Assembly: GCA_963969365.1 (NCBI GenBank)
Contig: OZ017752.1
Coordinates: 2,170,001-2,234,000, forward strand
DNA length: 64,000 nt
DNA from: Asterochloris sp. CNOR1
Lineage: Eukaryota; Chlorophyta; Trebouxiophyceae; Trebouxiales; Trebouxiaceae
Reading direction: 5' to 3'
Notes under the pieces: model-generated
Databases searched by the model: none
The model's input: only the letters and a program-made list of their open reading frames with translations
Told to the model about the DNA's origin: nothing
Program-made: the position numbers and the translations under genes
Shown here: piece after piece, positions 33,749-57,206 of the stretch
Layout: each line of letters starts with the position of its first letter
Numbering within the stretch: the first letter of the stretch is position 1

Positions 33749-36635
33749 ATGATGCTGTCCAAGTATCTCCCTGGCAAACAGGTCCTTCCATGTGGACAGA
33801 TCTCTGCAGCGGGTCTTGCCGGGGGCCAGCTTGGCCCCATGTGCCAGCAGCCAGAGGTACAGACAGCATGGCAAACCGGCTGCAAACGCCGCAGGCTATG
33901 CCTGCAAGCCAGTTTATCTCAGCGAGGTGCTGAGACAGGTGAGATGCCAATGTGGACGGTTCTACACTGCAGATCCAGTGCATGCGGCGTGCTGACTATG
34001 TCTTGTCTCCTCCACAGCGCCTTCAGAAAGGATTGCAGTGGAACGGGAAACTCTAAGGATGGCGCTGCCCAGCAAAGGCAGGATGGCAGAAGATACCCTG
34101 CAGCTGCTCAAGGTGCGCATGTCGCACAGCCTGCAATACAACTTCTCTGCCAGCAGGCAGTCTCGCTGGCAGCCTGGGCTACCATCACAGCCTTCTCCTT
34201 TGCTTGCAGGACTGCCAGCTATCTGTGTATAAGCCCAATCCCAGACAGTACATTGCAACCATCAGCCAGGTCAGCGTCGGCTCGCTGAAGCTTGCCATCT
34301 GTGCGGAGGCGCAGAAATTGCATCATGGTCCAAGTTGAGCATACCTGTTGCCCCACTCCCCTGCCCATACATGCATTGCATGCCCCGGGTGCTGGCTGCT
34401 GCTCTGACAGCACCCTCAGCTGAGAGGCGCGCATCACTTGCAGACCTGTGCTGCCTCACATTGCAGATGCCCCAGCTTGAGGTCTGGTTCCAGCGCGCCT
34501 CAGATGTGGTGCGCAAGCTGTCCTATGGCGACGTGGACCTGGGCATTGTGGGCTTTGACATGTTCAGCGAGCTGTCCAACGACGACCCCGACCTGCTGGT
34601 AGTGCACGACGCCCTAGATTTTGGGCACTGCCACCTTGGCCTGGGGGTGCCCATGGGCGGCAGGTGAGGTGAAGGGAACATGTCCTTGGCTGCTGGCAAC
34701 TATGGCCAGTTTGGCCTTGGGGTTGACACGTCAGAGGGTTGCTGTTTCACTTGGGCGTGAAGGCCCCCAGCTCCACTGAAGGCTGTGCAGACAGCTCCCA
34801 CTGGTGGTGCATGATGCCCCCAATTTTGGGCATCACCACCTCGGCCTTGGGTGTGCCTATGGACAGCAGGTCCGCAGCAAGGACCACAAGCTCATTGTCT
34901 GCTTCGATCTCTGCTGCTCAAAAGCTGACCGGGCGTTGCTGTGCACCTGGTGGACGAGGGTGCAGGCCTTCACAGCAAATGCTGTGCTGTGTCCAGGAGG
35001 CCTGGCGCCTTCCAGCAGGTGATGGTTGTCGCCCAGGCCTTCCATGAGCGTGCCTGCATGCAGGCTACTGCAGGAGGATCCAGTCCCTGCTGCTTCCTGC
35101 AGGTTCACAAACATCAACAGCCTGGAGGACCTAAAGGCCATGTCCGACTGGACCGAGACCAGCCCCCTGCGCGTAGTCACAGGGTACCAAAACATTGCGC
35201 GAAAGTTCTTCAGCAAGCACGGCTTCGAGCACGTTGTGCTGCTCAGCGCAGACGGTGCTCTCGAGGCTGCACCACTCATGGGCTCCGCCGACATCATTCT
35301 GGACCTCGTCAGCACAGGCAAGCTTGGCCATAGCTGCATGATGTTGCATTCTGCACAAGCTGGCCTTGGTGGTGCCAGGCACTAACTCCAAGCCAGATCT
35401 GCAGCCTGAACGCCTCAGTGCACAGGGTCCCAGCCTCATTGCGCAGGCAGTTTCGCGCAGACAGGACTGGCCGCCTGCCTGCGCTGCTAAAACAGCTGTC
35501 ATAGCCACAGGAGGACCTGCAGGGGCTCACTCTTTGCAAAACTGCACATCTGAACAAGCCTGCCTGCACATCTGACTGCAGAGCAGCCACTCAATCTGTG
35601 ATGTTGCTGCAGGCGTCACGCTGCGGGAGAACAACCTGAAGCAGCTGGAGGGCGGCCTTATAATGAAGAGCGAGGGTGTGCTGGTAGCCTCCAAGAGGGC
35701 CCTGGAGACGCGGCCAGGCCTGCTGGAGGTGGTCCATGAGCTCATAGAGCGTTTTGAGGCGCACCTCACAGCCGAAGACTTTTACTCAGTCACAGCCAAC
35801 ATGGTGAGAGCTTAAAGATGATGTGGCGCACTGTTCGATGACACACCTGTCCCAAGCAATGGGGCTGCGCAGCAGCAGGAGGTCCTGCAAGCGTACCCAG
35901 GCCAGGTCAGGCTGGCAGCTTGATATCTCCTGACTCATTGCGTCAGAGGCGTTTGTTCTGCAAAGCCAAAGCCGTCCTTTCTGGGCTGATCTGCTGTGGC
36001 TGCCCCAGAGAAGACCAATTTCAACCAGGGGAGCTTCAGCCCAGAAGAGATCGCTGCCGGGCAGGCACCAAGTGGTTGCTCTGTGTGCCCCTTTGACGTC
36101 CTATTGACATTTTGTTTGCGCCGCCCTGGTGTGTTGGCTGACACCCATATGTATGATCAAAATGGTCCTGCAGCGTGGCTCCAGCCCGGAGGATGTGGCC
36201 ACCAAGCTGCTACAGCAACCAGGGCTGCAGGGCCTGGCAGGCCCCACCATCAGCCCTGTCTTCACGATGGCGGATGGCAAGGCAGAGGCCCAGCCCAGCT
36301 ACTTTGCCTGTGTCATCTGTGTGGAGAAGAAAAAGCTGTACAGCTCAGTCAAGGAGATCAGACAGGTGGGCCTGGGCTGATGTGCAGCGTACCAACTGAA
36401 GCACGGCAGATATTGACATGGAGAACCCCCTTCGTGGAGCAGGGAGCCTCCTTTGATGTCTGTGCTGTTGTGACGATGGCAACTGCAACTCATATTGGCC
36501 ATTGTCTGTCTATGAAGGTCTGTGTGCTTGCTGCAGGTTGGAGGCACGGGGGTGCTGGTCTCACCCATGACGTACATCTTTGACGCGGAGCCAGCACGGT
36601 GGCGCAAGCTGCTGGACACACTGGGCCAAAATTAA
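33749..36635 (+). CDS. HISN1: ATP phosphoribosyltransferase, plastid (histidine step 1)
   Basis: It joins ATP and PRPP in the first, feedback-inhibited step of histidine synthesis. Eight exons: 33749-33938, 34018-34112, 34210-34269, 34467-34663, 35103-35317, 35613-35803, 36174-36365 and 36537-36635. They total 1239 nt (412 aa). Exon 1 ([20 protein letters not shown]...) looks like a transit peptide. Then follow [34 protein letters not shown] (substrate-binding lobe), [36 protein letters not shown] (PRPP loop) and a C-terminal regulatory region ending [20 protein letters not shown]. This is the long, regulated form of the enzyme. Intron 5 uses a GC donor (ACAG|GCAAGC). Introns 4 and 6 contain decayed copies of adjoining exon edges. 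It faces MnmE and converges on the kinesin gene. Confidence 0.97.
34801..34871 (+). repeat. Decayed copy of HisG exon 4 end inside intron 4
   Basis: About 71 nt resemble 34596-34665, the last coding bases of exon 4 plus the donor, at roughly three-quarters identity by eye. The exon reads [17 protein letters not shown]; the copy reads [17 protein letters not shown] and then loses the exon's frame. It ends in AGCAG|GT, so the donor is still recognisable. A weaker second echo may lie at about 34690-34730. Confidence 0.85.
36021..36062 (+). repeat. Decayed copy of HisG exon 7 start inside intron 6
   Basis: This stretch reads [11 protein letters not shown] where exon 7 (acceptor at 36172-36173) reads [10 protein letters not shown]. 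The nucleotide match covers about 40 nt at moderate identity. A shorter look-alike of the same acceptor, GGTCCTGCAAGCGTACCC, sits near 35881. Neither is needed for the HisG reading frame. Confidence 0.6.
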
Positions 36636-36934
36636 GATTGCAACCTCTCCGGGGCCCCCCTCATGTTGCTTTATAAAACGTTCATCAGGAGCATTTGTGC
36701 AGGCAGCCCAAGTTGCGCAGCCATGTGATATAGGCTGCATAGCTTGCCTGGCTGTCAAGTCATGAAGCTCTGAAGTCATCACGGTGAGGCCACTGCTGAA
36801 GTTTGTTTCATGTAATATTGCTGACTGTCACATGTGCTGCTCTGTGTCACATTTAAAGTTGGTAGTCGCAGAGGTTAATGTCGACCCTGTACGCACTGAT
36901 GGTCCCTGGTGTGCAAACTGCTACTAGCAGGTCA
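36636..36934. other. Convergent 3' gap, HisG / kinesin
   Basis: 299 bp between the two stop codons. It holds both 3' UTRs; a plus-strand TGTAA lies at 36811-36815. No exon was seen. Confidence 0.5.
36811..36815 (+). terminator. Candidate poly(A) signal TGTAA for HisG
   Basis: TGTAA about 176 nt after the HisG stop codon. Confidence 0.4.
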
Positions 36935-39900
36935 TCAACTGGCAAGTTGCAGCTGATTGACCCTGTGCACCTGTTTGGCTGTCAGGCTGTTGCCCTTGCT
37001 GCCCATGACAAAAATGAGGGAGCCCTTGTCCAGCGTCTTGGTGTCTGCAACCCTGAGGGCCCTAGCTGCTGGCGAATCCAATCCCAGCCGCTTCTTGGGT
37101 GAGGACGGCTTGGTGGCAGGGCGACGACCTCTCTCAGGGCTGCCCACAGAGATGTTGGTGTTGCTGGTGCCATACAAGATGGGCAGGCTGCCAGTGCTGT
37201 TGCTGGTGGGCAAGTGCTGCATCGAATTGATAGTGCTGGCCTGTGATGAGGTGAGGGCCAGGGTGGGCAGCGAGGAAGCAAGCTGGGGGTTGGGCCGAAT
37301 CAGTGACGAACGCCCCCATCCAGACTGCAACGAGCTTACTGGCGTGCTGCCTGTGCTGGGAGCAGGCTCTGGCGGCTGCAGAGCGGCTGCCTCTGGACTA
37401 GGGAATGCAGACACAGACCTAGCATCCGGGATGGTCAGGGTCTGCAGCAGGCCGAAGAGGAGGTTCCTCAGCAGTGGCTGGCACACACAAGTCGTGCATC
37501 CTGTGCAGCTAACTTGGATTGCTCTGGGCTCTGCGTCATATGGTGCTGTGCACCTGGACGGCATCCCTGCTTGCATCCTCCCAAACAGAACCATGTCCAC
37601 CAGAAGCCAGGAACATACCTGTGCTGGCCTCCCGAAGCGCGTGCTGCCGCTGCTGACCACCATCATTGAGCCTGGCTCCTGAGCAGGCACCGGGCTACCA
37701 AGCGCTGCAACGCTGTCTGACGGCTGCAAGCTCCCAGCTGGCAGCGCTGCAGCCTGCTGCAGGTGCTCCTGCCGAGCTCGGCTGGCCTCCGCATGTGCCT
37801 GGCTGGCAATGGCCGCCTGCAGCTTGAGCCTGGAGGCTCTCTCTGCAGCCAGGTCCTCCCTCGCCAGTAAGAGCTCTGCCTTCAGGTGGTTCAGCTCTGC
37901 CCGCTGCTGTGCAACAGCTGCGGCTGCCTGCAGTGACACAGGCAGCAGTCTTGGTGCATGTCACGTCATGTGAGGACTGCACGCCAGCGTAGGCAGGGTA
38001 GGCAGGGCAGTCATGAGGGCAGCCACCTCACTGGGAGCAGCCACCTCAGGGTTTGCAGGAGTCACGTTGCTTCAGACCAGCCAGATTGATGTGCCTGCCT
38101 GCTGGTGCACTGAGGCGCCCACCTGCAGGGCTGTGTCGCTGGTGGCTGGCCGGCTCACTGCCCCAGCACCATCCTCAGGCGGGGCAGGCGCCGCCATCAC
38201 AGGATTGCTTGTCCCTGGACGGCTGTAGCCCCCAGAGGTGCGCATCAGGCCAGCATACTTGGCCAGCAGCTCAGTCAACCTGCAACGCATGCAGTAGCAT
38301 AGGTAAGCTAGGTCTGCAGGCCCCCATGCAGCATAGCAGGTGCTTTGAGACTGGAGTTGCACTGACTCGACCTGAGTGTGTGCAGCTGTCCCTTGATGGA
38401 CTGGTGTTCCTGCCAGCTTTCTCTGCACCCGTGCTGGAGCACCGTGAGGTGCAGACCCCGCCTTCTCAGCGCTCTCGTGATAGTTCAGGAATGTGAGGAG
38501 GAGTGCACCCTGCCACGTGAATTTCAGCGCAGAACAACACCTGTACTCAGCTCTCTGCACAGGGACACCCTAGCCCACCTCCTGATCTCTGAATTCTTCA
38601 GCTCCAGTTCCTGCTTTAGGTCAGTCTTGAGGTTGACTGTCACCCTGTTAGTGATGTTGCGGGCCCTGTCTGCAAACTTGAGGGTGTTGCAGGTCTCCTC
38701 AAAGGCCAGGATGGAGGGGGAGATGGTGGCAATAATCATGGTGTTGCAGTTACCCCCCAGGGAGTCTTGCAAGAGGTGGGTGAGCTTAGAATCCCTGCAC
38801 ACAGGGGTTTGAAAAGAATTGCAGCCTGCTGGGGAGCATGAGGTGGCAGAGGGAGATCACAACCTGCCAAGGGCTTGTAGCATCGGCATGACGCCAGACG
38901 CAATGTCGATGGGCTGCGCAGCTGCCAGAGCCAGCGCAGCAACACCGTCTCAGCAGCAAAAGGACATGCGTACCAAGAAGGAACTTGCTGGGGCTCCAAG
39001 GAGGTTGCCTTACCCTCACAACAAGCACCAGCCCATAGTCTGTGCCTCTAGCTGCAGTCTTTGCATAGGTAGCCGCTTGCCCAGTGGGGACATGGGGCAG
39101 CGCCCATTCCCTCAAGTGGGCCACCCCTCATGCCGGCAAAGGACAAAGCATCCAGAAGCGCCTCAGGCTTGCTTGTGGGGAATCTAAATCCTATTGCTTT
39201 CCGGTCAGTCGTCTGGGCACTGCCACTCAAGCCCACCTGTAGGGGATGTGGCTGCGCCCTTCCTCTGTTAGGCAGGCCACCACAGTGATCAGCGTGGACA
39301 GCGACTGGTTGATGGAGGTCAGCTCATTGACCCGCACATTGCTCATCTCCACATGGGCGCTCCAGCGCTCGCTGCCCGCCAGGTCCACAAAGTTAAGCTT
39401 GGAGCGCAGGATCCCGCCGGGCATGCGCTGCTCCAACACCAACTACAGAAGGAGCAGCATCGTAGTACACACTTATGTGCAGGGAGGCATATGGACGGGT
39501 CTGGCACACACAGCCACACAAACAAGGGGCCCAGGTGGGGGAGAGGGCGCTTCATGAGGACCGGCTGCTTCAGAACATCATGATGAAGCTAGCAGATGGC
39601 AGCATCAGCAGACAGTATCAGCATGCAAGCATCAGGGACCTGAGACATGGTGCCCCCACTTGCAGGATGCCACCATAGCAGCTGCTGTGCTGGGTCTGGT
39701 TCAGGAGTCATTGCCCAGGCCACCAGCATAAACAGACCAGCATCATGCTGAGCACCCAAGACCCGCCTGCAGAATGGTGTGGGAGCGGCTGCTGTGCTGG
39801 TTCATCTCTGTGTGGCGCACCGCCCGGTGCTGGTTGCCCTTCTTCAGCAAGCCCAGCGACTGCTCCACGCTTCGCACCTTGACCGCCAGTGCCCCCGGCA

Positions 39901-41374: not shown

Positions 41375-41710
41375 GCTGCCCTTTCCCAATTGGACTGTGG
41401 GAAGGCAGCCTGCAGCAAACAGCACCTGCTCAGACAGGTTGCTGAAGAGCACATGCAATGCAGGTCACCACCCACCTTGGATTTGACAACCAAATCAAGT
41501 TGGCAGACAGGTCTAGGATGACAGCATAGGAGCAGCCTGCCTGGACTCTAGCCAGCAGTGGCCACCTGACGCCCACCGCTGCCAACATCACAACGCGCAT
41601 CTGGGCACTCTCCTCTGCGTTTTGGGTGCAACAGCACTCTGTTGCAGAGCATGTTGCTCTGAGTTCACGATCATTGTAGCATCAGCAATCCTGACACTGC
41701 TCTGGCCGAA
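41375..41710. promoter_or_regulatory. Bidirectional promoter region, kinesin / CEP104
   Basis: 336 bp between the kinesin ATG (41374, minus) and the CEP104 ATG (41711, plus). A CCAATTGG palindrome lies at about 41385-41392, close to the kinesin start. No coding exon was recognised inside. Confidence 0.5.
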
Positions 41711-44700
41711 ATGGCAGGAAAGCTAAGATTCACCGTTCATTCATGCAGCGGAGAGGCGAGCAATGCTCCTGCAAACTCTCATGTTTAGCATGCTGGGTCA
41801 ACAGGAGGCTAACTTGCACCTGTGCAGGATCCAGACTACCCCGCAAGGGAGCTGCTTTTTCACAGTCCCCAAACACGGGGATGGCAATGTCCCAGGCATG
41901 CAGCTGAAAGGCGCTGCAATCACCCACCCCACACAAGCACGACAGGTCTCCCTGTCCCTGCAGGTTCTCCAGATTTCCACAAGAGATTGTGCTGCGGCTG
42001 GAGGAGCCGTCAAAGGTCCACCAGATCCAGATTCTGTCACATGAATACAAGGTGAAGGCCAGGCGGCACTTTGCGATGGCAGCAGGCAGATGACTTGATG
42101 GCACAGCAGGCCTTGAGGGGCGTCACTATTCTTTGAAATCAGGCAGAGCCCTGGAGGACACAGCCATTGGCGTATTGCCATTGAGGCGGCGCTCGTGCAG
42201 CCCCACGGAGCTTCACTGCTACCTGCAGATGCTCCTAAGGCGCAGCCTCTCCCCTCCGCCAGGCTCATGGCCACTTGCAGATTGCCAGAAGGTAGCCCAG
42301 TGAGACTTCTCAGGTGCCGCCCCCTGCCCCTGCAGATTGCCACGAAGGTGGAGCTCTATGTGGGCAACCTGCCACCAGGGAGCAAGGACCCCGAGCAATG
42401 TATCATGAAGAGGCTGGGGTACCTCTCCTTTGACAACAACGAGCGCAGCGGGCACCAGGCGAGAGAGCTGAAGAGCGTGCATGTCAGCACGCCAGCCTTC
42501 CTGCTCAAGCTGGTGGTGCAGCGCTGCCACACCAACCGTCTGAACATCTACAACCAGGTGCCAACCAACCCAGGGCTGCTTCACCCTTTGCTGTTTTAAG
42601 GACGGAGCAGCACATCATCACAACAAGCCGCTTGCTGCCCATGTCAACCAGCTGCCGTGGCGCCACTGCCACAAGCAGCAGATGGCACATGCAGGACTTT
42701 CAGCCGCGATAGGGCACTGTGCACTGTTGCAGAGACATCTGCAGGCTGCAACTGTAAAGCAGCAGGGATGAACAGCTGCTTTCACTGCACAATAGCGTGC
42801 TAGCAGAAGCTGTGGGCTATGCAAGCCACATGCATTGCAGTCCGTAACCCCTCCTCTGGCACTGCGCGGGCTCATGCTGCCTGGGCGCGCCTGCGCAGGT
42901 GGGCATTGTGGCCATGAACCTGATTGGCGAGGCGCTGCCCCCTGAGAGTCAGGCCATCCCGCCCTCCTTTGTCAGCAACCACTACCAGCCAGACCGGCCA
43001 CCACCTAATGCAGGTGGGCACCTGCTGCCCGTACATTGCCCTGAGCTAGTGCCTTGCAGGCTGCACCAGGCAGTTGCTGGTTGCCTTGCTGGCACTGGCA
43101 GCCAAACGGTTTGTTTTCTTGCGACAACATGCAGCACTGCGCAGGACACGGCAGAGCTGGGTACAGAGGCGACGGCCAGACACGCAGGCCTGTCAGCAGC
43201 AGCATACTGCAGGCTGCAGACTTGCTCAAGTGGGCCCTGCCACTCTGACGGCAGACCTGTCGCTGTGATATCATGCTGTCTGCTCAGATGACTATGCCTG
43301 GCTGGGGCGCCTGCAGGCGCGATGGCAGACCTGTCGCTTGACATCCAGGTGGACCCCCAGACGGCAGCTAAGATTCGGGAGGTCAATGCAAAGAAGGAGG
43401 CGGCTGTGGCTCATGAGGACTATGATGAGGCCAAGCGCCTCAAGGGAGTCATTGAGCGCCTCAGGGTGGTCGGGCAGAAGGCAGGTGTTGTGTGTGCTGG
43501 CCCCCTAGCACAGCACTGACCCCCTTAGGGTGGTGGGGTAGGAGTCAGGTTTGTGAGATAACACTGCCTGTGGGCCAATGAGTGCTTTGTCTGGCGGGGC
43601 AGAGGGTCCCCTCTCTGCCCGCTGGTCTCAGGGTGTCCCAAACATGAGAGCCTCAGGGTGGTTGGGCAGAGGATAGGCTTGTTGCGCCTCAGGACCTTGG
43701 TTGGACAAGGGTCAGGTTGGGCCTGGCTGATAAATTGCTTGCTGATTCAACAGCAGGGACCTTGGCACCTCATGCCTGCAGCCCAGCTCAATGCAGCTCT
43801 GCAAAGGCCAGATGTAGAAAAGAAAAGTCTAGAGGTGTTGATGAGCTAGTCACAGCCTGACCAGTTTGGTAATGGCGGAGCTCAGCCCAGGGAAGTAACT
43901 CTGATGGCAGCCTGCACCTGCAGGTTGCCCAGCTGGAGGCTCGTAAGAAGGGTGCAGTGGAACGCGAGGATTATGACATGGCCAAGGTGCTGAAGAAGGA
44001 GATCGATGTGCTCAGGGCGGCTGGAGAGACCGCGGCCGCCCTGGAGCCTGCCCAGCCTCAGTGAGTGCCTGGTGCTCAGCTTCTGCGTGTGCTGCAGGCC
44101 ATGTCCAGGCCTAACACAAACTGGCTTCATTCTGAGTGGTGACGTGACTCAGCGAGGGCCTGGCTTTTAGCTGCTGCAGAGCTAGTGAGCTGCTTGTCGA
44201 GCTGTCTGCTGCGCTGAAGCTGGCCACCCCTCTTGGTGTCAGCACTTCTCTGCTGCCTGCAAGAAAGTGCTTGGTGCGACCAGGCTGCTTGTCTGCAGGC
44301 TGCTTGGCAGCATTGATGCTGTGCTGAGACAGATGCATACAGACCAATGCCAAGACAAGACATTGCAAGACTTACTTGAGCTTCTAGCTGACGGGCAGGG
44401 CTGCTGCCGCCAGCAGCCAGTCATCTCTGGTCTGCCTGCAGATCTGGCGGGACACCTGATGCAGAAGAGATCTTGGGACGTGTCATGAGCCGGAGAGCCA
44501 GCAATGCAGCTGCCGGCCCCTCGGCGTCAGCACTTGCTGGGGCCAGCTCTGTTGCCAGCAGCGGCGGGTCAGGGGTGCCAGCGTATTTGGCAGCAGCTGC
44601 GTCTCAGCAGGACCCTGCCATGGCAGCTCCATCACCAGGTAGTGGGTTGCTGATACTTGCATGCCTGCCCCGCAGGTTGCAGGGCATCACTGAGCGTGCA

Positions 44701-47700
44701 CAGCCTCCTGCCCATGCTGCATGTGCTGCTGGATGACCTGGGCAGATCTGCGCACACATTGCACATCTCGCCGCTTACAGCAGGCTAGCCATGCATGGTA
44801 GCTTGAGGCTGCCACCTGTGCTGCAGCCCCGCCGCTGCAACATCAGAATTCCTACATGGCTTACGACGACCGTCCTGCCAAGGCTAGGGGGTCTTACACT
44901 GGCAACGAGGATGAGCCAGCCATCATGGCAGCTGCAATTCCCCCCAAGGCAGCCCCAAGCAATGCTGGGAGCACAGACGGAGGTCAGCCACGCCCGCCAC
45001 ACCTGCTGGAGGAAGCACAAGTGTGCACTGCAGCTCCATGGGTGCACGACATGCACACCTCATGAGGGTAGTCTTAGTATGGCACCTCTGCGAGAAGTTC
45101 ACTGCATGGTATCACATCAGCCAAAATTCAATCTGCATCCACGGCAAGCTGAACAGATATTGTGCTGTGAAGGGCCGGCGCCCGAGGGATTTCCCCCTGA
45201 CCTACCAGCGCCTGAGGCCCTCACGCCTGCAGATGCCAACGAAACGGAGCCACTGATGCCGCTGGTGAGCACCTTGAGCTGCGAGCTGCTGCCAAATGCT
45301 GGAGGAAGAGCGACAAGCACAGAGACGAAGACCTGGGCGTTCCTGCTGCAAGTGGACCGTGCTCTCCCTCCTGCAGATGAAGAAGTCTGCTGGGTCCAAA
45401 GTCTGAGCCTCTTTGACCACATGACATCTCCAACTCTGTTGCCTGACCCTTACGCTGCTGCCTGCAAGTTGGGCAGTCTGCCCAGGCCGCGCTGCAGGCC
45501 CTTCGAACCCACATGACAGCACTGCTGAGACACGACCGGTAATCTGATTGCCAGTAAGGCAGGCGACCTTACGCTGTACCTTTACACTGCAGTTTGGGGA
45601 GTACACAGTGCGGGCACTTTACAGCCGGGTGTGGCAGCTCAGGGAGGGAGCCCTGCAGCGCGTGGAGCGTGTGCTGCGCAGCGGGGGAGCAGAGGACAGT
45701 CAGCGGGAGATGTTCAGGGCGCTGTCACGTGCCCTGCTGCGGGGCACGCAGGACAAGGTTGCCAACGTGTTCCACGCGGCCCTGCAGGTGTGCCCTGCCT
45801 GCGTGGCTGTTGTCGGTGGGAGTGGCCTGCTGCCAGGAGCTGTGGCTGTGCATGCAGTAGATGCCAAGCAGCGATGGGCCTGCTGCAATGGAAGAGCACA
45901 CTGGCTGACCAGATGCAAAAGTGGAGCATGCTGATGGGCAGGCTTGCACTGAGCCAGTGTCTGCTTGAGCATGGCCTAAGTGGTGCAGTGTGTAGGCGGC
46001 ACGGTCACTGCTGCCACAATGCAGTTTGCTTATTCGCATGCTTCTCAGAGACACTTGTAGTACTCGATTCTATGGCCCATAGATATGCTGGGACTGGCCT
46101 TGGCTTCCAGCTACGGTCCCACTGCATCAGCTGTGGTTGCCTGCAGGTGGCGCGGACGTTGATTGACACGACAGGCTCTGCAGCGGGCCCCAGAGAGGTG
46201 GCTGCCTTTGTGACGGAGCTGGCCCCTGTGCTGGTGGACAAGGCGGGCGACAACAACACTCGTGTGCGCGACTCTGCCAGCGAGCTGCTGCTGTGGGTAG
46301 CCAAGCGCAAGGATGCAGGCCTGGCAGGGATGACTGGTGGGTTGAAAGCATGGACGTCAGCTGCTGCCCATGAGACGACCACTCCGCTTCTCTTCTATGG
46401 CGCTGCACAGCAGAATGCCTTGGCACAGGCTTCCAAGTGGAATTGTACTGCGTGGCACTTGCCTAGACATACAGTAGGGGGTAAGTCCAGGTCAGGTTTT
46501 GTACATAATTCATGCATGCTGCTGACTGATGTCGGCAGCAGACCGCCAGATCTAGTTCACGCCTTCAGGACACCACCGCCCATAGCTGCATCGTCTGGGT
46601 GATTCAGTGCCAAGCAGAACTTGCTGGGCCCCTCCTACATGGGGTCTCTCCTACCTAGGGTCTTGCTCAGCAATGACGCGCAGTGCCCTGCAGGCGGCAC
46701 TGCCAACGTTGTTATGTGCAAGCTTGACTGGCGGCATCAGCTCGCCTGGGGCCTGATGTGCCTCTCCTGACGTGCAGGCATCTTTGTGAAGCCTGTCAAG
46801 AACCAGAGCGCATGGCGGCCAGTGCTGGCGCGCCTGCAGCTGCTGCAGGAGCTCATACCCCAGTTTGATGTGGCGCGGGGCGGAGCCCCAGAGGGCTTCC
46901 AGCTGGAGCCACTGATGCGCTTCATTGGGCAGGCGTTCACCAGCGCCAATGCTGAGGTGCGTGGGCACATAGCATGAGGCAGGACTGGCCTCATGCCCAG
47001 GCATGGGGCTGGCGTGCACCAGCGCGCCAAAGCTGGATTGCATGACAAGGGCGCATCCTCAAAGGCTGACAACAGCCTCCAGCAGCCTGCCGCATCAACT
47101 GCTGGCTGAGTGCCTGCTGTCTTCCTGATGCAAGCCTTTACAAGCACCCATGCTGAAGCTCTGGAGCAGAGCAGCCAGACATGTCCTGGATGGCCTCACC
47201 CATGTGTAAGGCCAGGCAGGGCACCCACCTACCTTCCTAAGCGATGCAGCATGTTGTAGCACTGTGCCGGAGGCACATGCCCTGAGTTCACATTTCCTGT
47301 TGAAAAGGTGCGAGCGCTGGCGGTCAAGGTGTACATGCTGGTGTACGGGCGGGTGGGCAGCGCCGCACAGAAGCACCTGCCAGAGGACCTGAACCCCAAG
47401 ATTCGGGAGCAACTGCAGGTGCAGTCTCGTAGTCCTGCCATCTGTCAGTCGCAATGCAGGGCAAGGCAGGCTGTTGGCCACTTGTGCTTGGCCTGCCTTG
47501 TTTCTGTATGTTGCCTGTAAGCACGGCGAGACAGCTGCGTAGCCATGAGTTGATCTTGCTCCACTATCTGTCTGCCCCTCTCCTTGCCCCTTCTTGAACA
47601 GCCCACCCAGGGCAACTCGCGGGCTGACTGCCGCATCTCATCTTTGCCGACCAACTGAGAAGCGCTGCTGTGGTGCGAGCTGCAGGCGGAGATGGGTGGC

Positions 47701-49404
47701 GATGCAGCCTCTGCACCCCCGGCTGTGCAGCCCGCGCAGCCAGCGCCTGCAGCCAAGCCAGCGCGGCAGCAGCAGCAGAGGGCACCTCCCGCAGCAGACA
47801 GCCGACCGGCTGCTCCTGCAGCTGCGCCTGCTGCAGCCACCCATAAGATGCACCACTCCCCGGTGCACCACCCTGGGCACGGACACGCGCCCCAGCAGAC
47901 CCCTGCAGGCAAGCCGTGGCACATATTTGTGCAGGTTGGCCACCTTAGTATCTTGGTGTGGCCTGCAGACACTGCTCTGCTGCTGCCTGGCCGACACGAC
48001 TGCTGCGCAGGCTGCCGAAGGGCTGATGCTGGGTTGGCAGCTAAGCTGGCTGCCTTTTAGGCACGCATGATACAGCTGATGCAAGCACACGCAATGTATT
48101 TTTTCATTTGCAGACCCTGGGCCTGCCAGTAAGGCCCTGCTGCCCCAGAACATCTGCTCCCCAAGCTCATGCATGCACATGTTGAGCGCTCTGCTGCTGT
48201 CGTGCAGATGCCGGCCTAGCCAGCCAGGACCTTGCTTGAATGTGTGTGAGCAGCCTGGGTGTGGCTTGCAGGAGTCCTGTGCAGCCACCACCAAAGTGAA
48301 CCCCTGCTGGCCACCCTGCCCCCCAAGCAGGCTGCGCTTGTCGACTGCTGATGCTGGCCCAAGTAGATGCAGCTGCTGCTGCCCTGCAGACCCTGGGCCC
48401 ATCAATGAGGACCCTGCCCCTTACGAGGCCGAGCTCCAAGCCCGGGAGGCCACCTTCGGCCCCAGCCACCCTGACGTGGCTGAGTCTCTGAGCAACCTGG
48501 CCATCCTGTACAACCAGAGGGGGGACTATGCCAAAGCGCAGCCCCTGTATGAGCGTGCCCTGGCCATATGGGAGAAGACGCAGGGGCCAGACAACCCAGA
48601 CGTGGCCCACACGCTGACCGACCTGGCCGTGCTGCACCTGGAGCAGGTGAGCAGCACAGGCAGCTGGGCAGTGGGCGGCTGCATGCGGCCTGCCCCTGGT
48701 GGCACCTGGCTGTGCTGCCTCTGGAGCAGGTGAGGGTCACAGGGCTGCTGGTGGCCCCACAAAGCTGGCACATGGCTGTTCTGGGAACGGCGCGCAATCT
48801 GGCGCACACGCTGAGGACCCCTGGCGTGCTGCAGCACTTAGAGCAAGGGGGCGGCACAGGATGCTTGGCAATGGGGTTTTATGCAAATCTCCTCTGGCTG
48901 CGCGCCGCGTGCAGCAGGCACAAGGCAGCCAGCCTGGTTGGTGCTGGCCTCCTTGTGCAAGTTGCGCATCTGGCACGGTGATGTATCTTGGCCGTGCGGC
49001 ATGTGGAGCAGGTGAGTGGTATTGTAACCCCTTGAGAAGACCTGTATGCATACAAGCTACTGTGTTCAGCATGTCCTTATGTTTTGGAGTTGAGTGGCAC
49101 AGGCTCTGGCAGCTTGCTAGAATGGGACACATGACATCAGTAGCAACCAGTCCGGACGCACATGGCTTGAACTGCAGCATGCAGGGCCGTTCAGGATGGC
49201 TTGGCTGCAAGACTTGCTCAGCAAGCGTGCAAGCTGCAGCATCTGACGCAGAGAAGGACATGGCGTGTGTGCCTGATGCAGGGGCGTGACGACGTCGGCA
49301 GGCCCCTCCTTGAGCGTGCGCTGAGGATACAGGAGGCAGCCCTGGGCCCTAATCACCCAGACGTGGTGGCCATCAGAGATGTTTTGAATAGCGAAGATGA
49401 ATGA
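41711..49404 (+). CDS. CEP104: CEP104/FAP256-like ciliary tip protein with C-terminal TPRs
   Basis: CEP104 (Chlamydomonas FAP256) caps ciliary and microtubule plus ends. Seventeen exons sum to 2550 nt (849 aa) in frame. Exon 1 (41711-41755, MAGKLRFTVHSCSGE) and exons 2-5 form the N-terminal jelly-roll domain: DPDYPARELLFHSPQTRGW, PQEIVLRLEEPSKVHQIQIL, KVELYVGNLPPG, KRLGYLSFDNNERSGHQARE. Exons 6-7 hold two UVR-like helices (EAAVAHEDYDEAKRLK and GAVEREDYDMAKVLKK). Exons 8-10 are a Ser/Ala/Pro-rich linker. Exons 11-14 (45593-47418) match the TOG domain (FGEYTVRALYSRVWQLREGA; DNNTRVRDSASELLLWVAKR). After an Ala/Pro/Gln-rich exon (47686-47908), exons 16-17 (48390-48646, 49282-49404) encode kinesin-light-chain-like TPRs (NLAILYNQRGDYAKAQPLYE; RPLLERALRIQEAALGPNHP), where animal CEP104 has zinc fingers. 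Introns 1, 2, 6 and 15 are GC-AG. The TPRs could instead be a separate gene opening near 48173. Confidence 0.9.
43249..43275 (+). repeat. Decayed copy of CEP104 exon 6 start
   Basis: GGCAGACCTGTCGCT occurs here and again at 43325-43339 just inside exon 6, with further partial matches on both sides. The intronic copy lies about 75 nt upstream of the true one. Confidence 0.6.
43521..43721 (+). repeat. Degenerate tandem copies of CEP104 exon 6 end plus donor
   Basis: The exon 6 end and donor (about 43454-43495, CGCCTCAGGGTGGTCGGGCA then GAAGGCAGGTGTTG) is echoed in the intron at about 43521-43556, 43645-43684 and 43684-43721. The best copy contains CCTCAGGGTGGTTGGGCAGA. Spacing is irregular, so these are not a fresh minisatellite. 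Confidence 0.75.
47006..47164 (+). repeat. Two decayed copies of CEP104 exon 13 end
   Basis: Exon 13 ends GCAGGCGTTCACCAGCGCCA then ATGCTGAG|GTGCG (46930-46961). Similar runs occur in the following intron at about 47006-47045 (GGCGTGCACCAGCGC...AAAGCTGG) and 47121-47164 (GCAAGCCTTTACAAGCACCC then ATGCTGAAGCTC). Confidence 0.7.
48111..48147 (+). repeat. Decayed copy of the first TPR exon start
   Basis: The true acceptor and exon start at 48387 read CAGACCCTGGGCCCATCAAT. The intronic run at 48111 reads CAGACCCTGGGCCTGCCAGT, and both continue to a CCCTGCY-GCCCC-like stretch. The copy keeps a usable-looking acceptor after a T-rich tract. Confidence 0.75.
48699..49019 (+). repeat. Several decayed copies of TPR exon end plus splice donor
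   Basis: Exon 16 ends GCCGTGCTGCACCTGGAGCAG|GTGAGC (48646). Copies lie in the next intron at about 48699-48743 (TGTGCTGCCTCTGGAGCAG|GTGAGG), 48768-48792 (partial), 48800-48860 (CGCACACGCTGAGGACCCCT through TTAGAGCA, donor lost) and 48965-49019 (GCGGCATGTGGAGCAG|GTGAGT). Two copies keep intact GTGAG donors. Confidence 0.85.
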
Positions 49405-49551
49405 CTGCCCCTGCTCAATCCCCCTCAGTACAGTCGTGACAAGTAGTGGTAACAGCTTTGCTGGTAATCGTCGCTTCTCTATCATTGCATAGCAGCGGTG
49501 GCGGTCAAGTGCACACTCAGTTCACTGTTGGGCTGTGCTGTGGCGGAGTGC

Positions 49552-51814: not shown

Positions 51815-51835
51815 TGAACTCACTATCTTCACGCC
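51815..51835. promoter_or_regulatory. 21-bp head-to-head intergenic space, CFAP77 / CCDC13
   Basis: Only 21 bp lie between the ATG of the CFAP77-like gene (51814, minus) and that of the CCDC13-like gene (51836, plus). Promoter elements and transcription starts must lie within the opposing gene, so the 5' UTRs are expected to overlap antisense. Confidence 0.55.
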
Positions 51836-54023
51836 ATGACCGAGCCTGAGGCTCCTGCGGAAAGTACTTCTGCACCTCTCACCGAAGCCGTGACTCTACC
51901 GAAGGATCCAACACCAGCATTATCAACGCCAGCCAGCACTGATGCGCCCCCTGCTGTCAGCGACAAGCCAGTGGCCGCAGTGCTTGACCTGCAGCTTGTT
52001 CCCCAGCTGGTATGTGCAGCACTGCCTTGTCAGGCACTTGGTAACATGCAGCATTGCTGATGGTCCTTTGCGGCTCTGCAGAGGGAGGAACAGCTGAAAA
52101 ACGAGCGTCTGGAGGCAGCACTGCAGCAGAAGCAGCATGAGGTGGACTCCCTAAGGTGCGACATGTCCTTGTTTCCACTCTTCTTGTGCACTGCACAAGC
52201 CTGTGAGCTGGCCTCTGAACATAATTCTGCTGCAGGGAGATTGCAGATGCAGCAGTAGGCCTCAAAGCCCAGGACACTGAGACCAACAGGATCATTGAGC
52301 TCTCTAAACGCAACAGGGGTCTTAATCTGATGCTGGAGCGCGAGAAGCAGAAGGCTGCTGGCCTGGCTGCAGAGCTGCAGAAGGTCCAGCTCCTGGACGG
52401 CGTGCCTGCTGCTGGCACAGACCCCAAGGTCAGTGTCCTGCATGCTATCAGCTGGTGCTACTTGGTGGTGTTCACAGCTTCTGCTCAGTTCAACGCCTGC
52501 TGTGCCCCCCTTTGTGGGCACTTCTACCCACAGCAGCAGATTTCAGGCCTCACAGATCACTGGCTGGTGGATGCTTTCTGCTTGCTCAGCTCCCCAAGAA
52601 ATGCTGGCTGGTTGTGCAGAGCCCAGAGGCGGCCTGCAGGGCAGCTGTGGAGAAGGCAGCTGCAGCTGCAGAGGCGGCGCAGAAGGAGTGTGTCAGCTGG
52701 AAGCACAAGCACGAGGCTGCTCTGGAGCGCACCAACCAGCTGGAGGTCAAGGTGGGTGGGCCTGAAGCATGGCTGGCACTGAGGACCCCAACAAACAGCA
52801 GCAGCCAGAACAGAGCATATTAGTCGGTGGACAGCCCATTGCATGCAAAGTCGAGGGCAGAATGTGTGGGGTGCAGTCTGCAGGGAGCCCCTGAAGCACC
52901 CTACACTGTGAGGACCCTGCCCCGCAGCTGCATCAGCTCAGGGCTGAGCGAGACAACCTCAAGTTTCTGGCAGATTTACCTGTGAAGCTCCGGCTTGCAG
53001 CTGTCCCAGCTGAGGGCTGAGCGGGACAAGCTGGAGAGGGCGCTCGTGCGCGAGGTGGGCAGCGATGTGCCGATGGCCAAGCTGCTGGCGGATGAGGGAG
53101 GGGACTGGCGCGGGCGGGCGCAGCAGATTGGGCTCCTGCGGGACAAAGTCAGGGAGCTGCAGGAGTCGCAGGTGCAGAGGGCTGCCATGTCGAGGGTGCT
53201 GCGTACCTGAGTCAGCGAGGCTGCTGCATCCTCTACCAACCTCAGCAGGCAGAACATAACGCCTGCTGGGCTTGGTAGTGGATGCAGCAGCAAGGCTACA
53301 CTGTTGCGCAGTCCTGGTGCGTGCAGCCCAGCGGCATCATGGGCACCCTTGCAGCTTGACAGGCGTGGTTACTGTGCAGCCCTGTCAAGCTCTGCAAGAC
53401 CACCCAGCCTTGCAGCCAGTGACATGCAGTCTTTGATGTCAAGCAAGTTTGCCTCTCTGCTTGCAGGGGTTGGCTGCTGTCACAGTCAACTCGCGATACA
53501 ACCGGGAACACCAGAGAAATATTGACTCCATCAAGGCAGACCGCATGAAAGAGCTGGAGCGGCTCAGAGCTGAGCTGGAGAGCTCGTCTGCCAAGCAGGC
53601 TGCCCTACAGGCAAAGCTGGATGGCACGGTTGCAAGAAAGACAATCGTGGAAGGCGAGGTGAGAACCATGCCCGCAGTTGTTGCACGCTTGGTGCTGTGC
53701 TGCTGTTTGCTTAGATGGAGCATTCGATGCTCACACAATATCTGCATGTGTGATTGCTGCAGGTGAAGAGCTTAAAGGAGAAGATGGGCATTCTGCTTGA
53801 TAAGGCAGCCACAGATGACAAGCTAGTGGCAGCCTTGCAGTCTGAGATTGCAGCCCTTCGAAAGTCTCTCAGGGAGGCAGGGTCTGCAGAAGACTTTTCC
53901 ACCATGCAGCGGCAGATTGAGAGCCTGAAAGGCAAGTATGCAGAGCAGGTCGAGATGATCTCGCAGCAAGAATCACTGATTGCATCTCTGCAAGGCGTCA
54001 CCCCAGCAGGGCTTCAGCAGTGA
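51836..54023 (+). CDS. CCDC13: CCDC13-like coiled-coil protein
   Basis: Human CCDC13 is a centriolar-satellite protein needed for ciliogenesis. Seven exons: 51836-52009, 52082-52155, 52236-52428, 52620-52751, 53001-53171, 53467-53658 and 53763-54023. They total 1197 nt (398 aa) and all use GT-AG. After a Thr/Ala/Pro-rich disordered start (MTEPEAPAESTSAPLTEA) the protein is almost all coiled coil. Three blocks match CCDC13: RIIELSKRNRGLNLMLERE; REVGSDVPMAKLL followed by WRGRAQQIGLLRDKVRELQ; and VKSLKEKMGILLDKAATDDK. It is shorter than human CCDC13 and lacks its long C-terminal part. Exon 5 has an upstream near-duplicate (52924-52962). It faces CFAP77 and converges on bS18m. The subfamily call rests on the WRGRAQQI block and its neighbours. 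Confidence 0.75.
52924..52962 (+). repeat. Near-duplicate of CCDC13 exon 5 start, decoy or alternative exon
   Basis: GCAGCTGCATCAGCTCAGGG here parallels GCAGCTGTCCCAGCTGAGGG at 52997, and the match runs about 39 nt. The copy reads LHQLRAERDNLKF where exon 5 reads LSQLRAERDKLER. It keeps an acceptor and the frame at first, then runs KFLADLPVKLRL without an obvious donor, so it may be a decayed exon copy. Confidence 0.8.
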
Positions 54024-54271
54024 CCATGAGCCAGCCACCTCAGCCAGTCTGACCAAAACCAGCTTTAAACTGACAAACACACTAGTTGTGGTGAAGTGCT
54101 TTACTCATGGAGCAGTCTCCTAGAGAAGGCCTTGAGCAGCATGACTTGTCTTCCATCCTGAATGCTGCTATCGATGCTTGATGTGCTGCTGCTGCTGGAA
54201 TCTACAGAGGAGCGGTGCTTGGGCATCTCCAGCATTAGCTGCTGTGCACCTGGGCCACTGGCATATTATGT

Positions 54272-57206
54272 CTAGCGTGGGCTGTAGCCTGTGGACCGTG
54301 GCCGAGGCTTCTCGTAAAAGGATGCCTCATCATTGTCCTCATCATTATTCTGCAAGATGGGGAATACTGGTGTTTGGCACAGTGCTGGCCTGCCAGCAGC
54401 GTCAAAAGACATCCTTCTGTGCTTGAGGATGACAAGCTGTGCTCTGGAGCCGAAACAACTGCTCAGCCACTCCTGCAGCAGGCTCTTCCGGGGAGATGCG
54501 GCATACGCAACATTGCAGAGGGTTGCCACCCCAAGTGCTGACATGCTGCCCCATCTTGTCGACGCACACTTCTCACAGATGCCACAGCAATCAGAGCGCA
54601 CGAGGGGCACCTGTCAAAGCTTGTATGCACAGCACATGTGCAGCGCATGACCGGGCTGGAGTCCTGCTTGGGCAGTTGATCTGCAAAATCACTAATGACT
54701 GTCAATCGTGTGAACATACACAGCAACATACCTCTCAGCTGCGCTTCTGGTCAAAGACACACAGCATGTCATGAGCATGAGAGGAGGGGCTGCACTCAGG
54801 TCGCTAAGGCAGTTTAAATGCCCGTTGCATCCGCTGTTTGCCAACACCCACCTCCCAGCTGCGCTTGCGACCAAAGAGGCGCAGGACATCACTGGGCCGC
54901 CGGAACTCCTCGCGCCGGTCCAGCGGTGGCAGCAGTGCCATCTGGCGTGCCGTCTTGATCTGGCGCATCAGGTGGCGGTGCACATGCTGCTTGAGACCGG
55001 TACGCCGCCGAGGCTGCAGCTGCCCCGTGCGTGTCACAAACTGGTCCAGGAAGCGGAGGTTGCGGAAGTCGGCCTGGCGCCGCACCTACACGGCAGGGGG
55101 GCGGTGGTGGGGTGAGGGGCAGCTGTTTGCTGCTGGACCTTTAGGCTCAGCAGTGCAGCTGACAAGTTTGGTGGCTGCTGATTATCTCTGTAGCTAGTTT
55201 CTGGCCTGCAAGGCACTGGCGCAATAGATGACGGTATGCGCTCGTCCAGCAAGCGCTGCTTGAAAAGCTGGAGTGGCAGTGATTGTGACAGGGTGATGAA
55301 TCAGCTGGCCCTGGCGGCATTTGCTCAAATGCCAGATGGCGGGGATTCAGGTGTGCTCCAGCGCTGAGCTGGGGCGGAATGCATTAGTACTACTGGCTGG
55401 GGCAGGCTGAAGGCCGCCGCCTTAAATTTCTTGATGGGCTCTGGCAGCTGGGTGTCTGCAGGACTCCTGCTACCAGTGCAACTCAGAAGCAAGCACTGCA
55501 GCCTCCAAGAGGGGGCAATGTCTTACCTCGGCATTTGTCAGCCGCACCACCTGGTCCCTCTGCTGCTGCTGGGCAATTCTGCGGTCCTTGTAGCTGGGCT
55601 GGGGCTGCACCAGGTCCTGCAGCACCAGAGGCAGATGGGTGTTCATACAATGTGGTTCTAGAGCAGCTCAGAAGCTGTGCCTTTTCGGGGCTGGGACCTC
55701 AGAGTGTGCAACAGTCAGGTAGGAGGCACGACAAAGGTGGCACAACATGAACCAGCATTGGAGCAGGGCCACTGCAGACCCAGTGCTATGCTGATGCTTG
55801 CGAGGCTTGCTCAAGTGCATTGTCCTGTGATTCTGCAGCAGGCTCACCTCTGCTCTGTAGATGGCGCCTGCCTGAAAGTCCCGGGTGGGGTTGACCCGCG
55901 GCCCAGGCAGCTGCTGCCGTCCCAGGTCCAGGCCCAACTCCTGCTGGAGAAGGGAAGGCTCCTGAGCACCCAGCTCTGCACACAGCAGAGCAGCAGCAGG
56001 TCGGCAAGGCCTGGCCGCATGTGCCACCATGTCCACCTTTGCCCAGCCCTTGGCCCCTGCCACTGTACTTGCTGCCTGCCAGGGGCAGCTCGAGCTGTCT
56101 GCATCAGGTAGCACTGCCCAATGTGCAAGCCCCTGCCGCCTGCCTAGGGGCAGGCTGTGCAGGCAGAAGGCAGGCCTCAAGTGGCGCCAACCTGAACATC
56201 AGCCAACTGTCCTGCATGACAGGTTCCCCTGAACAGCAGGGCGTGTCCATGCACCTGCGGCCCAGCAGCCCAACATCGTCGCTATATAGCTGAGGACCCT
56301 CTGCCAGGGCAAAAAATGGCCACAGCCTGCGGTGTTGCTTCCGAACCCACCTGAGTAGCCTGAGATCATGTGAGGCCCGTCCTCCTCCCGTCTGCTTGGC
56401 GCCAGTGTGGCCTGGCCCTCTCCCCCACCCTCGCTTGGAGCATCTGCCTCTTGCGCCTGCTGCTCCAGGCGCTCACGCACCCAGGCGGTGAAGAGCAGCA
56501 CCTCGTCCTCCTCAGCAAGATCCTGGCTGTCAGAGTCTGTGGCTGGCTCCTCAGGGTCCCCTGCCGCAGTCGCAGCCTCTGGCGGCCCATCCGACGGCGA
56601 GTCTGCCTCACGCTGCTGTGCAACTTCAGTCGCTGCACTCAGGGGAAGCTGGGCCTGGCTGGCAGGACCACCCTGGGCCTGTGCCTGGTTGCCAGCAGTA
56701 CTGCCTACAGCAGGCAGCCGCCCAGCAGCAGGAGCAGACGGGCCCTCTGCTCCTGATGCTCTCTGTGCTGGCCCAGCAGCGGCCCTCCCCGCCCTGAGTC
56801 TTCTGCTGTCTGCTGGCTCAGCAGCACCAGCGGTGGTTTCCCTCGATGGCAGGCCAGGCAGCTCAGGCTCCAGCTCAGCTGCGAAGGGTGCGGCGGCCTC
56901 GTTGTATGCAGGATCTGCTGAGCTTTGGTGCTGTCCTACGTCTATGGGGAGCTCAGCACTGTCAGGCAAACGTTTCTCCTGTGCGGCCTCGTCGAAGGTC
57001 ATCTGCCTGCCATCTGCGACCTGCCTGATGGCATCAGTGACTGCAGCATAAGGGCAGGTATGTGGCGATGCCTGCTCTGATGACTTAGGTTGATGTAGCG
57101 CAGCAATGGCGCAGAGGTGCAGCTCAGGCTCTACACAGCTTGCCTGACAGCCTGTCATCCATCCATTGCCGCCACCCCTTGCCACCCTTGTCGTCGCGGC
57201 CTGCAT
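54272..57206 (-). CDS. Mitochondrial small-subunit ribosomal protein bS18m, long N-terminal extension
   Basis: It belongs to the 30S platform and contacts bS6 and the mRNA exit region. The bS18 core lies in one exon (about 55085-54860): RRQADFRNLRFLDQFV, QPRRRTGLKQHVHRHLMRQI and KTARQMALLP. The ADFRN...RRRTG pattern is of plant mitochondrial bS18 type. Upstream exons read ELGAQEPSLLQQELGLDLGR, PGPRVNPTRDFQAGAIYRAE and DLVQPQPSYKDRRIAQQQQR. The N-terminal part (57206 to about 56350) is unusual: over 250 residues rich in Ala, Glu, Gln and Ser, acidic and low in complexity, with an LLFTAWVRERLEQQAQEAD helix. The first residues (MQAATTRVARGGGNGW) could be a presequence. The last exon after SWE gives NNDEDNDEASFYEKPRPRST and stops at 54272. 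An intron in the first ORF is possible but not required. Confidence 0.86.
54727..54770 (-). repeat. Decayed copy of bS18m exon end plus donor
   Basis: On the minus strand the core exon ends GGTCGCAAGCGCAGCTGGGAG|GTGGGTG (near 54855). 120 bp downstream in the intron the run TTTGACCAGAAGCGCAGCTG then AGAG|GTATGTTG repeats it. About 44 nt align. Confidence 0.75.

Follow-up and report, generated by a model that had tools for sequence, protein, structure and literature searches.

The window examined here, a 64-kb stretch of contig C7 of Asterochloris sp. CNOR1 (assembly of 56.4 Mb in 21 contigs), carries genes for HisG, CEP104, a CCDC13-like protein, bS18m and a kinesin. Several of these genes have introns that hold decayed same-strand copies of the adjacent exon edge together with its splice site. 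The pattern is real and general in the sequence sampled, and its cause is ordinary: it is very probably best explained by short head-to-tail duplications that fall at random, some of them crossing splice sites, with the exon side preserved.

Gene models and exon-edge copies in the window

The sample comprised 314 kb from three contigs, namely the window, 200 kb of contig C1 and 50 kb of contig C12, and the counts given below refer to it unless the window is named. Genes were modelled by a purpose-written gene finder trained on the same 314 kb, with no supplied annotation, transcript or sister genome. It returned 755 exons (median 131 bp) and 666 introns (median 221 bp), with predicted splice signals of CAG/GTGAG at donors and CTGCAG/G at acceptors. 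The models are good where checked, by Pfam in the window (kinesin, 9e-81; CEP104, 1e-47; S18, 3e-14) and by structure alignment for HisG. The name CCDC13 is that of the initial annotation of the window, and the Pfam matches of this gene, to coiled-coil families, are weak only. The CEP104 model (41458-49404) ends in a TPR region (Pfam TPR_12, 1e-35), which follows a TOG domain.

The clearest case lies in HisG, where the end of exon 4 recurs in intron 4 with 73% identity over 90 bases (blastn, E 1e-10). The gene finder called the region of the copy a weak exon (34791-35018, an open stretch of 228 bp with both splice signals). When HisG is spliced by hand, with two weak predicted exons omitted (one of them covering the copy) and a GC donor used, its protein can be aligned to the solved ATP phosphoribosyltransferase 6czl across the copy-bearing intron, with no gap in 231 residues. 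The GC donor, AGCACAG/GCAAGC in window 35300-35335, is the apparent end of exon 5, which the GT-only gene finder misplaced. That a copy was mistaken for an exon is a caution for gene annotators.

The initial annotation had listed nine cases by eye in which an exon edge seemed to recur in the adjacent intron. In each, 50 bp of the exon edge were compared with that intron, the null being 2000 dinucleotide-preserving shuffles of the same intron. Eight of the nine beat their own shuffles: HisG intron 4, CEP104 introns 5, 6 and 13, CCDC13 intron 4 and bS18m (each p=0.0005), CEP104 intron 15 (p=0.0035) and CEP104 intron 16 (p=0.0010). HisG intron 6 showed no excess (p=0.27; three alternative edges, p=0.67, 0.43 and 0.21), nor did a tenth intron added to the test, which follows the CEP104 exon ending at 47418 (p=0.70). 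By blastn, the exon end has two copies in CEP104 intron 6 and three in intron 16. Sources and copies in the window are given below; the last line is a further case beyond the span of the initial annotation.

34592-34680, + strand: end of HisG exon 4 and start of intron 4, source of the copy (blastn pair with 34797-34886; exon end backed by the 6czl alignment)
34797-34886, + strand: decayed copy of the HisG exon 4 end in intron 4, AG-GT retained (blastn; p 0.0005; outside the protein)
43247-43292, + strand: copy of the CEP104 exon start 43321-43365, in the upstream intron (own-shuffle p 0.0005, alignment)
43450-43488, + strand: CEP104 exon end (exon 43317-43484), source of two copies downstream (gene model, blastn, shuffles)
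43514-43552, + strand: first copy of CEP104 exon end 43450-43488, 77% (blastn E 0.003)
43645-43677, + strand: second copy of the same exon end, 85% (blastn E 0.001; p 0.0005)
46990-47035, + strand: copy of CEP104 exon end 46912-46954 (shuffles, p 0.0005; outside the 107 blastn events described below)
48114-48146, + strand: copy of CEP104 exon start 48390-48420, in the upstream intron (shuffles, p 0.0035); the same region has a related blastn match, 48165-48235 with 48347-48417, E 2e-4
48603-48675, + strand: end of the CEP104 TPR exon with the beginning of the following intron, from which three copies derive (blastn, shuffles)
48704-48743, + strand: copy 1 of the CEP104 TPR exon end, 85%, donor retained (blastn, alignment)
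48800-48875, + strand: copy 2 of the CEP104 TPR exon end, 72% (blastn, shuffles)
48987-49016, + strand: copy 3 of the CEP104 TPR exon end, 87%, donor retained (blastn, alignment)
52924-52963, + strand: copy of the CCDC13-like exon start 52997-53036, acceptor retained (blastn 80%, E 2e-4; p 0.0005; alignment)
54726-54771, - strand: copy of the bS18m exon end 54846-54891, in the downstream intron (blastn 72%, E 0.004; p 0.0005; alignment)
32076-32126, - strand: copy of the exon end at 32186-32236 (blastn 69%, E 0.006)

Exon edges and adjacent introns across the sample

The named cases had been picked by eye, and the 314-kb sample served as an independent test. Exclusion of exons below 40 bp or with an exon score below 8 left 542 exon ends and 595 exon starts from the 666 introns. 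At p<=0.01, same-strand matches between a 50-bp exon edge and its adjacent intron numbered 68 in 1137 tests (ends 40/542, starts 28/595). The reverse-complement control gave 17/1137 at the same threshold (ends 11/542, starts 6/595), the far edges of exons of at least 100 bp gave 5/863 (3/413 and 2/450), and the centres of exons of at least 150 bp gave 3/532 (2/252 and 1/280). Set against shuffles of its own intron, the real edge ranked top of 101 for 39 of 473 exon ends and 29 of 507 exon starts.

This follows closely the comparison of exon edges, exon centres and shuffled introns that the initial annotation had proposed, and the excess lies with the edges (68/1137 against 3/532 centres). Junction copies, which the annotation had described as recurring in several genes, are confirmed in the 314 kb as a real pattern that extends outside the window. 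As a set they do not arise from a generic CTGCAG-rich background, the artefact that it had considered: the reverse, far-edge and centre controls are near expectation, and the excess is kept against shuffles. Edges recur where centres do not because a contiguous duplicate can enter an intron only by way of the exon edge.

Junction-crossing and intron-only duplicates

Pairs lying wholly within introns are in excess as well. In a matched-geometry test, real junctions were required to have exons of 50 bp and introns of 120 bp, and pseudo-junctions to lie in introns, exons or intergenic stretches of 200 bp. Pseudo-junctions inside introns, at matched distance, reached p<=0.01 in 94 of 2051 overlapping tests (50/1010 following, 44/1041 preceding), compared with 42/447 for real exon ends, 24/475 for exon starts, 13/414 for exon-exon tests and 9/362 for intergenic ones. 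Exon starts are not above the intron-only level, and exon ends reach about twice that level.

The duplicates are direct and of short range. Direct exact 10-mers stand at about 5x background at 11-40 bp, dip at 41-60 bp, form a separate hump of about 3-6x at 61-150 bp and fall to 1.1x at 301-400 bp; inverted 10-mers are flat, at 0.7-1.5x background at all distances. A blastn self-comparison, in which events were defined as direct pairs with a shift of 20-420 bp and E<=0.05, gave 107 events, partly dependent on one another through multi-copy clusters such as C1 1,122-1,127 kb and CEP104. They comprise 74 exon-intron, 26 intron-intron and 6 exon-exon pairs and 1 mixed pair; one of the 74 depends on an exon with a score below 8, and relabelling the HisG copy leaves all four classes as they are while shifting the codon counts slightly. 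BLAST drops matches near the self diagonal, and the blastn list contains no match with a shift below 40 bp, short units being unrepresented in it. Below 400 bp, direct pairs and separate-arm inverted pairs number 131 and 0 at E<=0.1, and 202 and 18 at E<=1, with hairpin matches (a stretch against its own reverse complement, each pair double-counted; 88 at E<=0.1 and 3 at E<=1e-5) set aside.

When units with the sizes seen in the events are placed at random on the gene models, the exon-intron to intron-intron ratio is 1.49; it becomes 2.21 after simulated mutation and detection, and the observed split of 74:26 is compatible with the latter (p=0.28). The initial annotation had taken the junction to be the unit. 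With the intron-intron controls also in excess and simulated placement fitting the split, the junction as preferred unit was dropped. What does stand, on the edge test and the event set, is that introns hold short direct duplicates that span splice sites and leave decoys. Their form had been thought to lie beyond any named process; the need for a new one is not supported, and the copies look like the outcome of ordinary short tandem duplications.

Anatomy and decay of the copies

Homology runs from intron into intron for 8 bp or more in 42 of the 74 exon-intron events, and the unaligned bases between copies are 94% intronic (9,431/9,980, all 107 events), as expected if the remainder of the unit was intron decayed on both sides. 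The unit thus resembles a plain segment of exon and neighbouring intron, in which both copies of the intron part have decayed. In 72 of those 74 events the exon portion of the alignment leaves more than 8 bp uncovered at the far side of the exon; in these counts, as in that of splice-site retention, the HisG copy was treated as an exon, following the gene finder's call, and not recounted. Head-to-tail adjacency is visible in a minority of events and presumed for the others.

The copies look nearly neutral when set against a constrained exon. In the exon-intron events, mismatches at exon codon positions 1, 2 and 3 number 277/1092, 225/1095 and 336/1099, and the shift modulo 3 divides as 14:15:17 in the ungapped events, without frame preference. 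Most pairs are 60-80% identical, and only 3 of the 107 events exceed 90% identity. The GT of the decoy donor is retained in 19 of 40 copies and the AG of the decoy acceptor in 23 of 28, where simulation gives about 0.65 (p 0.03 and 0.07). The evidence for selection on decoy sites is weak and mixed, and no conclusion was drawn from it.

Random tandem duplication as the probable origin of the copies

Under the favoured explanation, head-to-tail duplications of roughly 60-300 bp would land at random along genes. A unit crossing a donor would convert exon-intron into exon-intron-exon'-intron'; with the first donor used, the second exon piece would be stranded inside the intron, and a unit crossing an acceptor would give the mirror case, in which the last acceptor wins. 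The protein would be unaltered, so that the insertion would be nearly neutral and the intron lengthened. The stranded copy and its splice site would then decay about neutrally, the exon partner being held by constraint. Because that partner stays constrained, exon-intron pairs would remain recognisable for longer than intron-intron pairs of equal age. All units would have been born head to tail, and the outer splice site was presumably used without a harmful interval. The chemistry would most likely be end joining after fill-in at staggered double-strand breaks.

With the exon partner conserved, duplications too old for intron-intron detection are still readable, which gives a simple view of old intron growth. 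The stranded copies are also natural decoy splice sites of known origin, and they can be used to probe how strict the choice of first donor and last acceptor is.

Several points weigh against random tandem duplication as set out here. The aligned length reaches at least 0.7 of the shift in only 24 of the 107 events (18 of 38 at E<=1e-5). Exon ends give matches about twice as often as intron-only tests, an excess for which decay, not fitted separately, could account. Mismatch at codon positions 1 and 2 is somewhat unequal (0.254 and 0.205), and stops are slightly few in the copies, with 11 in 1027 codons where 1.8% is expected if they are neutral. The simulation that yields 2.21:1 assumes uniform ages, indels at 0.1 of substitutions and third positions at 0.6, and the events cluster, making p values that assume independence too small. 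None of the 107 events falls wholly within the 34 kb of intergenic sequence and untranslated regions, where about 7 would be expected from the intron rate. The age spectrum, moreover, is unlike that of a constant process.

Alternative explanations

A junction-directed process, in which splice sites or spliced RNA would template the copying of exon edges into introns, could explain why exon ends stand above the intron-only controls (42/447 against 94/2051 at p<=0.01) and why the excess is larger at high scores (score>=110: exon ends 14/447, exon starts 8/475, intron-only 14/2051). Slower decay on the exon side predicts such an excess, however, and the 74:26 split fits random placement with decay. 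Intron-only pairs are common, and the intron DNA into which homology runs for at least 8 bp in 42 of 74 events would be absent from a spliced-RNA template. Copying directed by junctions is, on this evidence, very unlikely. Decayed duplications of whole exons, or alternative exons, are also highly improbable as the source, even though the gene finder took the HisG copy for a weak exon and some genes encode repeats, such as the TPR in CEP104. In 72 of 74 events the alignment gives out before the far side of the exon is reached, although the exon is the most conserved part, and HisG spliced without the copy matches 6czl without a gap over its 231 residues; shifts lacking frame preference (14:15:17) and mismatches at all codon positions argue against alternative exons.

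Introns born when an exon segment containing AGGT is duplicated in tandem (the Rogers model) would likewise hold copies of both flanking exon edges, and such births are described in other eukaryotes (PMC4974935; PMC2891723). One short predicted intron, C1 1,124,311-1,124,446, lies wholly within an 80% direct repeat with a shift of 113 bp that continues into both flanking exons, but it is out of register (arms 11/32 and 16/32). In-register flank matches of at least 18/32 identity occur upstream in 0 and downstream in 1 of the 666 introns, with permutation means of 0.32 and 0.32, and most copies sit away from the opposite intron end; it is extremely unlikely that intron birth produced them. A probability close to nil attaches to chance, to a CTGCAG background of low complexity and to slippage-derived cryptic simplicity. 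Acceptors do often carry TGCAG, HisG intron 6 is at chance level, single weak events may be chance, and direct 10-mers are also enriched at 11-40 bp, the range where slippage would act. Against these stand reverse, far-edge and centre controls near expectation, an excess that survives own-intron shuffles and, in the case of slippage, the separate hump at 61-150 bp after the dip at 41-60 bp.

Intron length and distribution of events

Introns with an event, 73 of the 666 (about one in nine), have a median length of 373 bp against 203 bp in the other 593, a gap that is by itself no proof of growth, as longer introns give events more room. Recognised events cover 8,123 of 164,741 intron bases (about 5%), and these shares are probably lower bounds. 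The suggestion in the initial annotation that introns grow by duplication is in keeping with the longer event-bearing introns, though not with the junction as its unit.

The event rate per intron bp is modestly overdispersed among genes (chi2/df 1.69; simulated mean 1.0, maximum 2.68), and its gene-level correlations with GC3, intron length and intron number are weak (Spearman 0.27, 0.26 and 0.33); none of the gene-level explanations is compelling. By region, 34 events lie in the 50 kb of C12, 58 in the 200 kb of C1 and 15 in the window (0.68, 0.29 and 0.23 per kb), and none of the 107 blastn events lies in window 1-32000.

Age of the duplicates

Young copies are scarce. Among the 100 exon-intron and intron-intron pairs, 10 have at least 85% identity, where about one third is expected under a constant rate in simulation. 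The exon-intron class contributes 5 of its 74 pairs (p 3e-7) and the intron-intron class 5 of its 26 (p 0.05); both p values presuppose that the events are independent and that the simulated rates hold. The scarcity cannot be due to young copies being lost, because a steady state bars older copies from outnumbering younger ones per unit age. What remains is a higher past rate, easier fixation at that time or a collapse of young copies in the assembly. Tandem Repeats Finder (TRF) arrays at >=90% match in the same sequence have units below 30 bp in 27 of 28 instances.

The scarce young copies hint at a past duplication wave. It is possible, though doubtful, that genes of this lineage underwent a burst of tandem duplication, in units of 60-300 bp, by which many introns grew more or less together, and that the process then nearly ceased. 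If this is true, exon edges hold a datable record of an intron-growth episode that is largely missed by intron-intron comparison.

Relation to known systems

Small tandem duplications in rice were reportedly the subject of a 2014 study by Vaughn and Bennetzen. In mouse and human cells, small tandem duplications form via Pol alpha-primase fill-in at 3'-protruding breaks, with end joining (PMC8355091); a review includes tandem duplications from asymmetric nicks among rice insertions of 10-1000 bp (PMC7407515). Like these products of break repair, the duplicates described here are direct, short-range and tens to hundreds of bases long. Unlike them, they are fossils of mostly 60-80% identity, many lie across splice junctions, and their chemistry we infer.

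Gao and Lynch are said to be the authors cited, with a 2009 study, for intron gain by tandem duplication. Tandem duplication as an origin of new introns is described in PMC4974935 (a potato RdRp case) and PMC2891723 (Drosophila cases), and there, as here, exon-like sequence is left in an intron with the protein unaltered. PMC4974935 also reports an 83-bp tandem duplication within a potato intron that left the gene structure unaltered, which is close to the present pattern. In contrast to intron gain, it is existing introns that bear the copies here, and no in-register new intron was found among the 666 tested.

Tandem exon duplication and mutually exclusive exons also place exon-derived sequence in neighbouring introns, but the present copies are partial, decaying and without frame preference. 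Introner elements likewise give many introns of a single algal genome a shared sequence signature, whereas the copies here are local and not dispersed within the 314 kb. Dispersed element copies are not indicated in this sequence, where matches more than 1 kb apart number 485 direct and 477 inverted at E<=0.1; at E<=1e-5 there are 8 direct and 2 inverted. Decayed junction-crossing duplicates as a genome-wide intron class have no description among the matches listed from the open-licence literature, which is weak evidence of absence.

Further repeats in the window and on contig C1

Three duplicates without a junction lie in the window.

60454-60576, - strand: young intron-only tandem duplication, shift 63 bp, 87% (blastn)
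39655-39803, - strand: old intron-intron pair, shift 107, 71% (blastn E 0.04)
42062-42164, + strand: old intron-intron pair, shift 57, 70% (blastn E 0.02)

On contig C1, a cluster of overlapping direct repeats at 1,122,000-1,127,000, with shifts near 86-113, 186 and 299 bp, runs through exons and introns and may represent genes with repeat-encoding exons. The short predicted intron at 1,124,311-1,124,446 is the nearest thing in the sample to a duplication-born intron, though out of register. Hairpins, that is, inverted repeats with 81-86% self-complementarity, occur in the window at 12722-12756 and 53220-53291, in predicted introns, and at 56724-56760, in a predicted exon.

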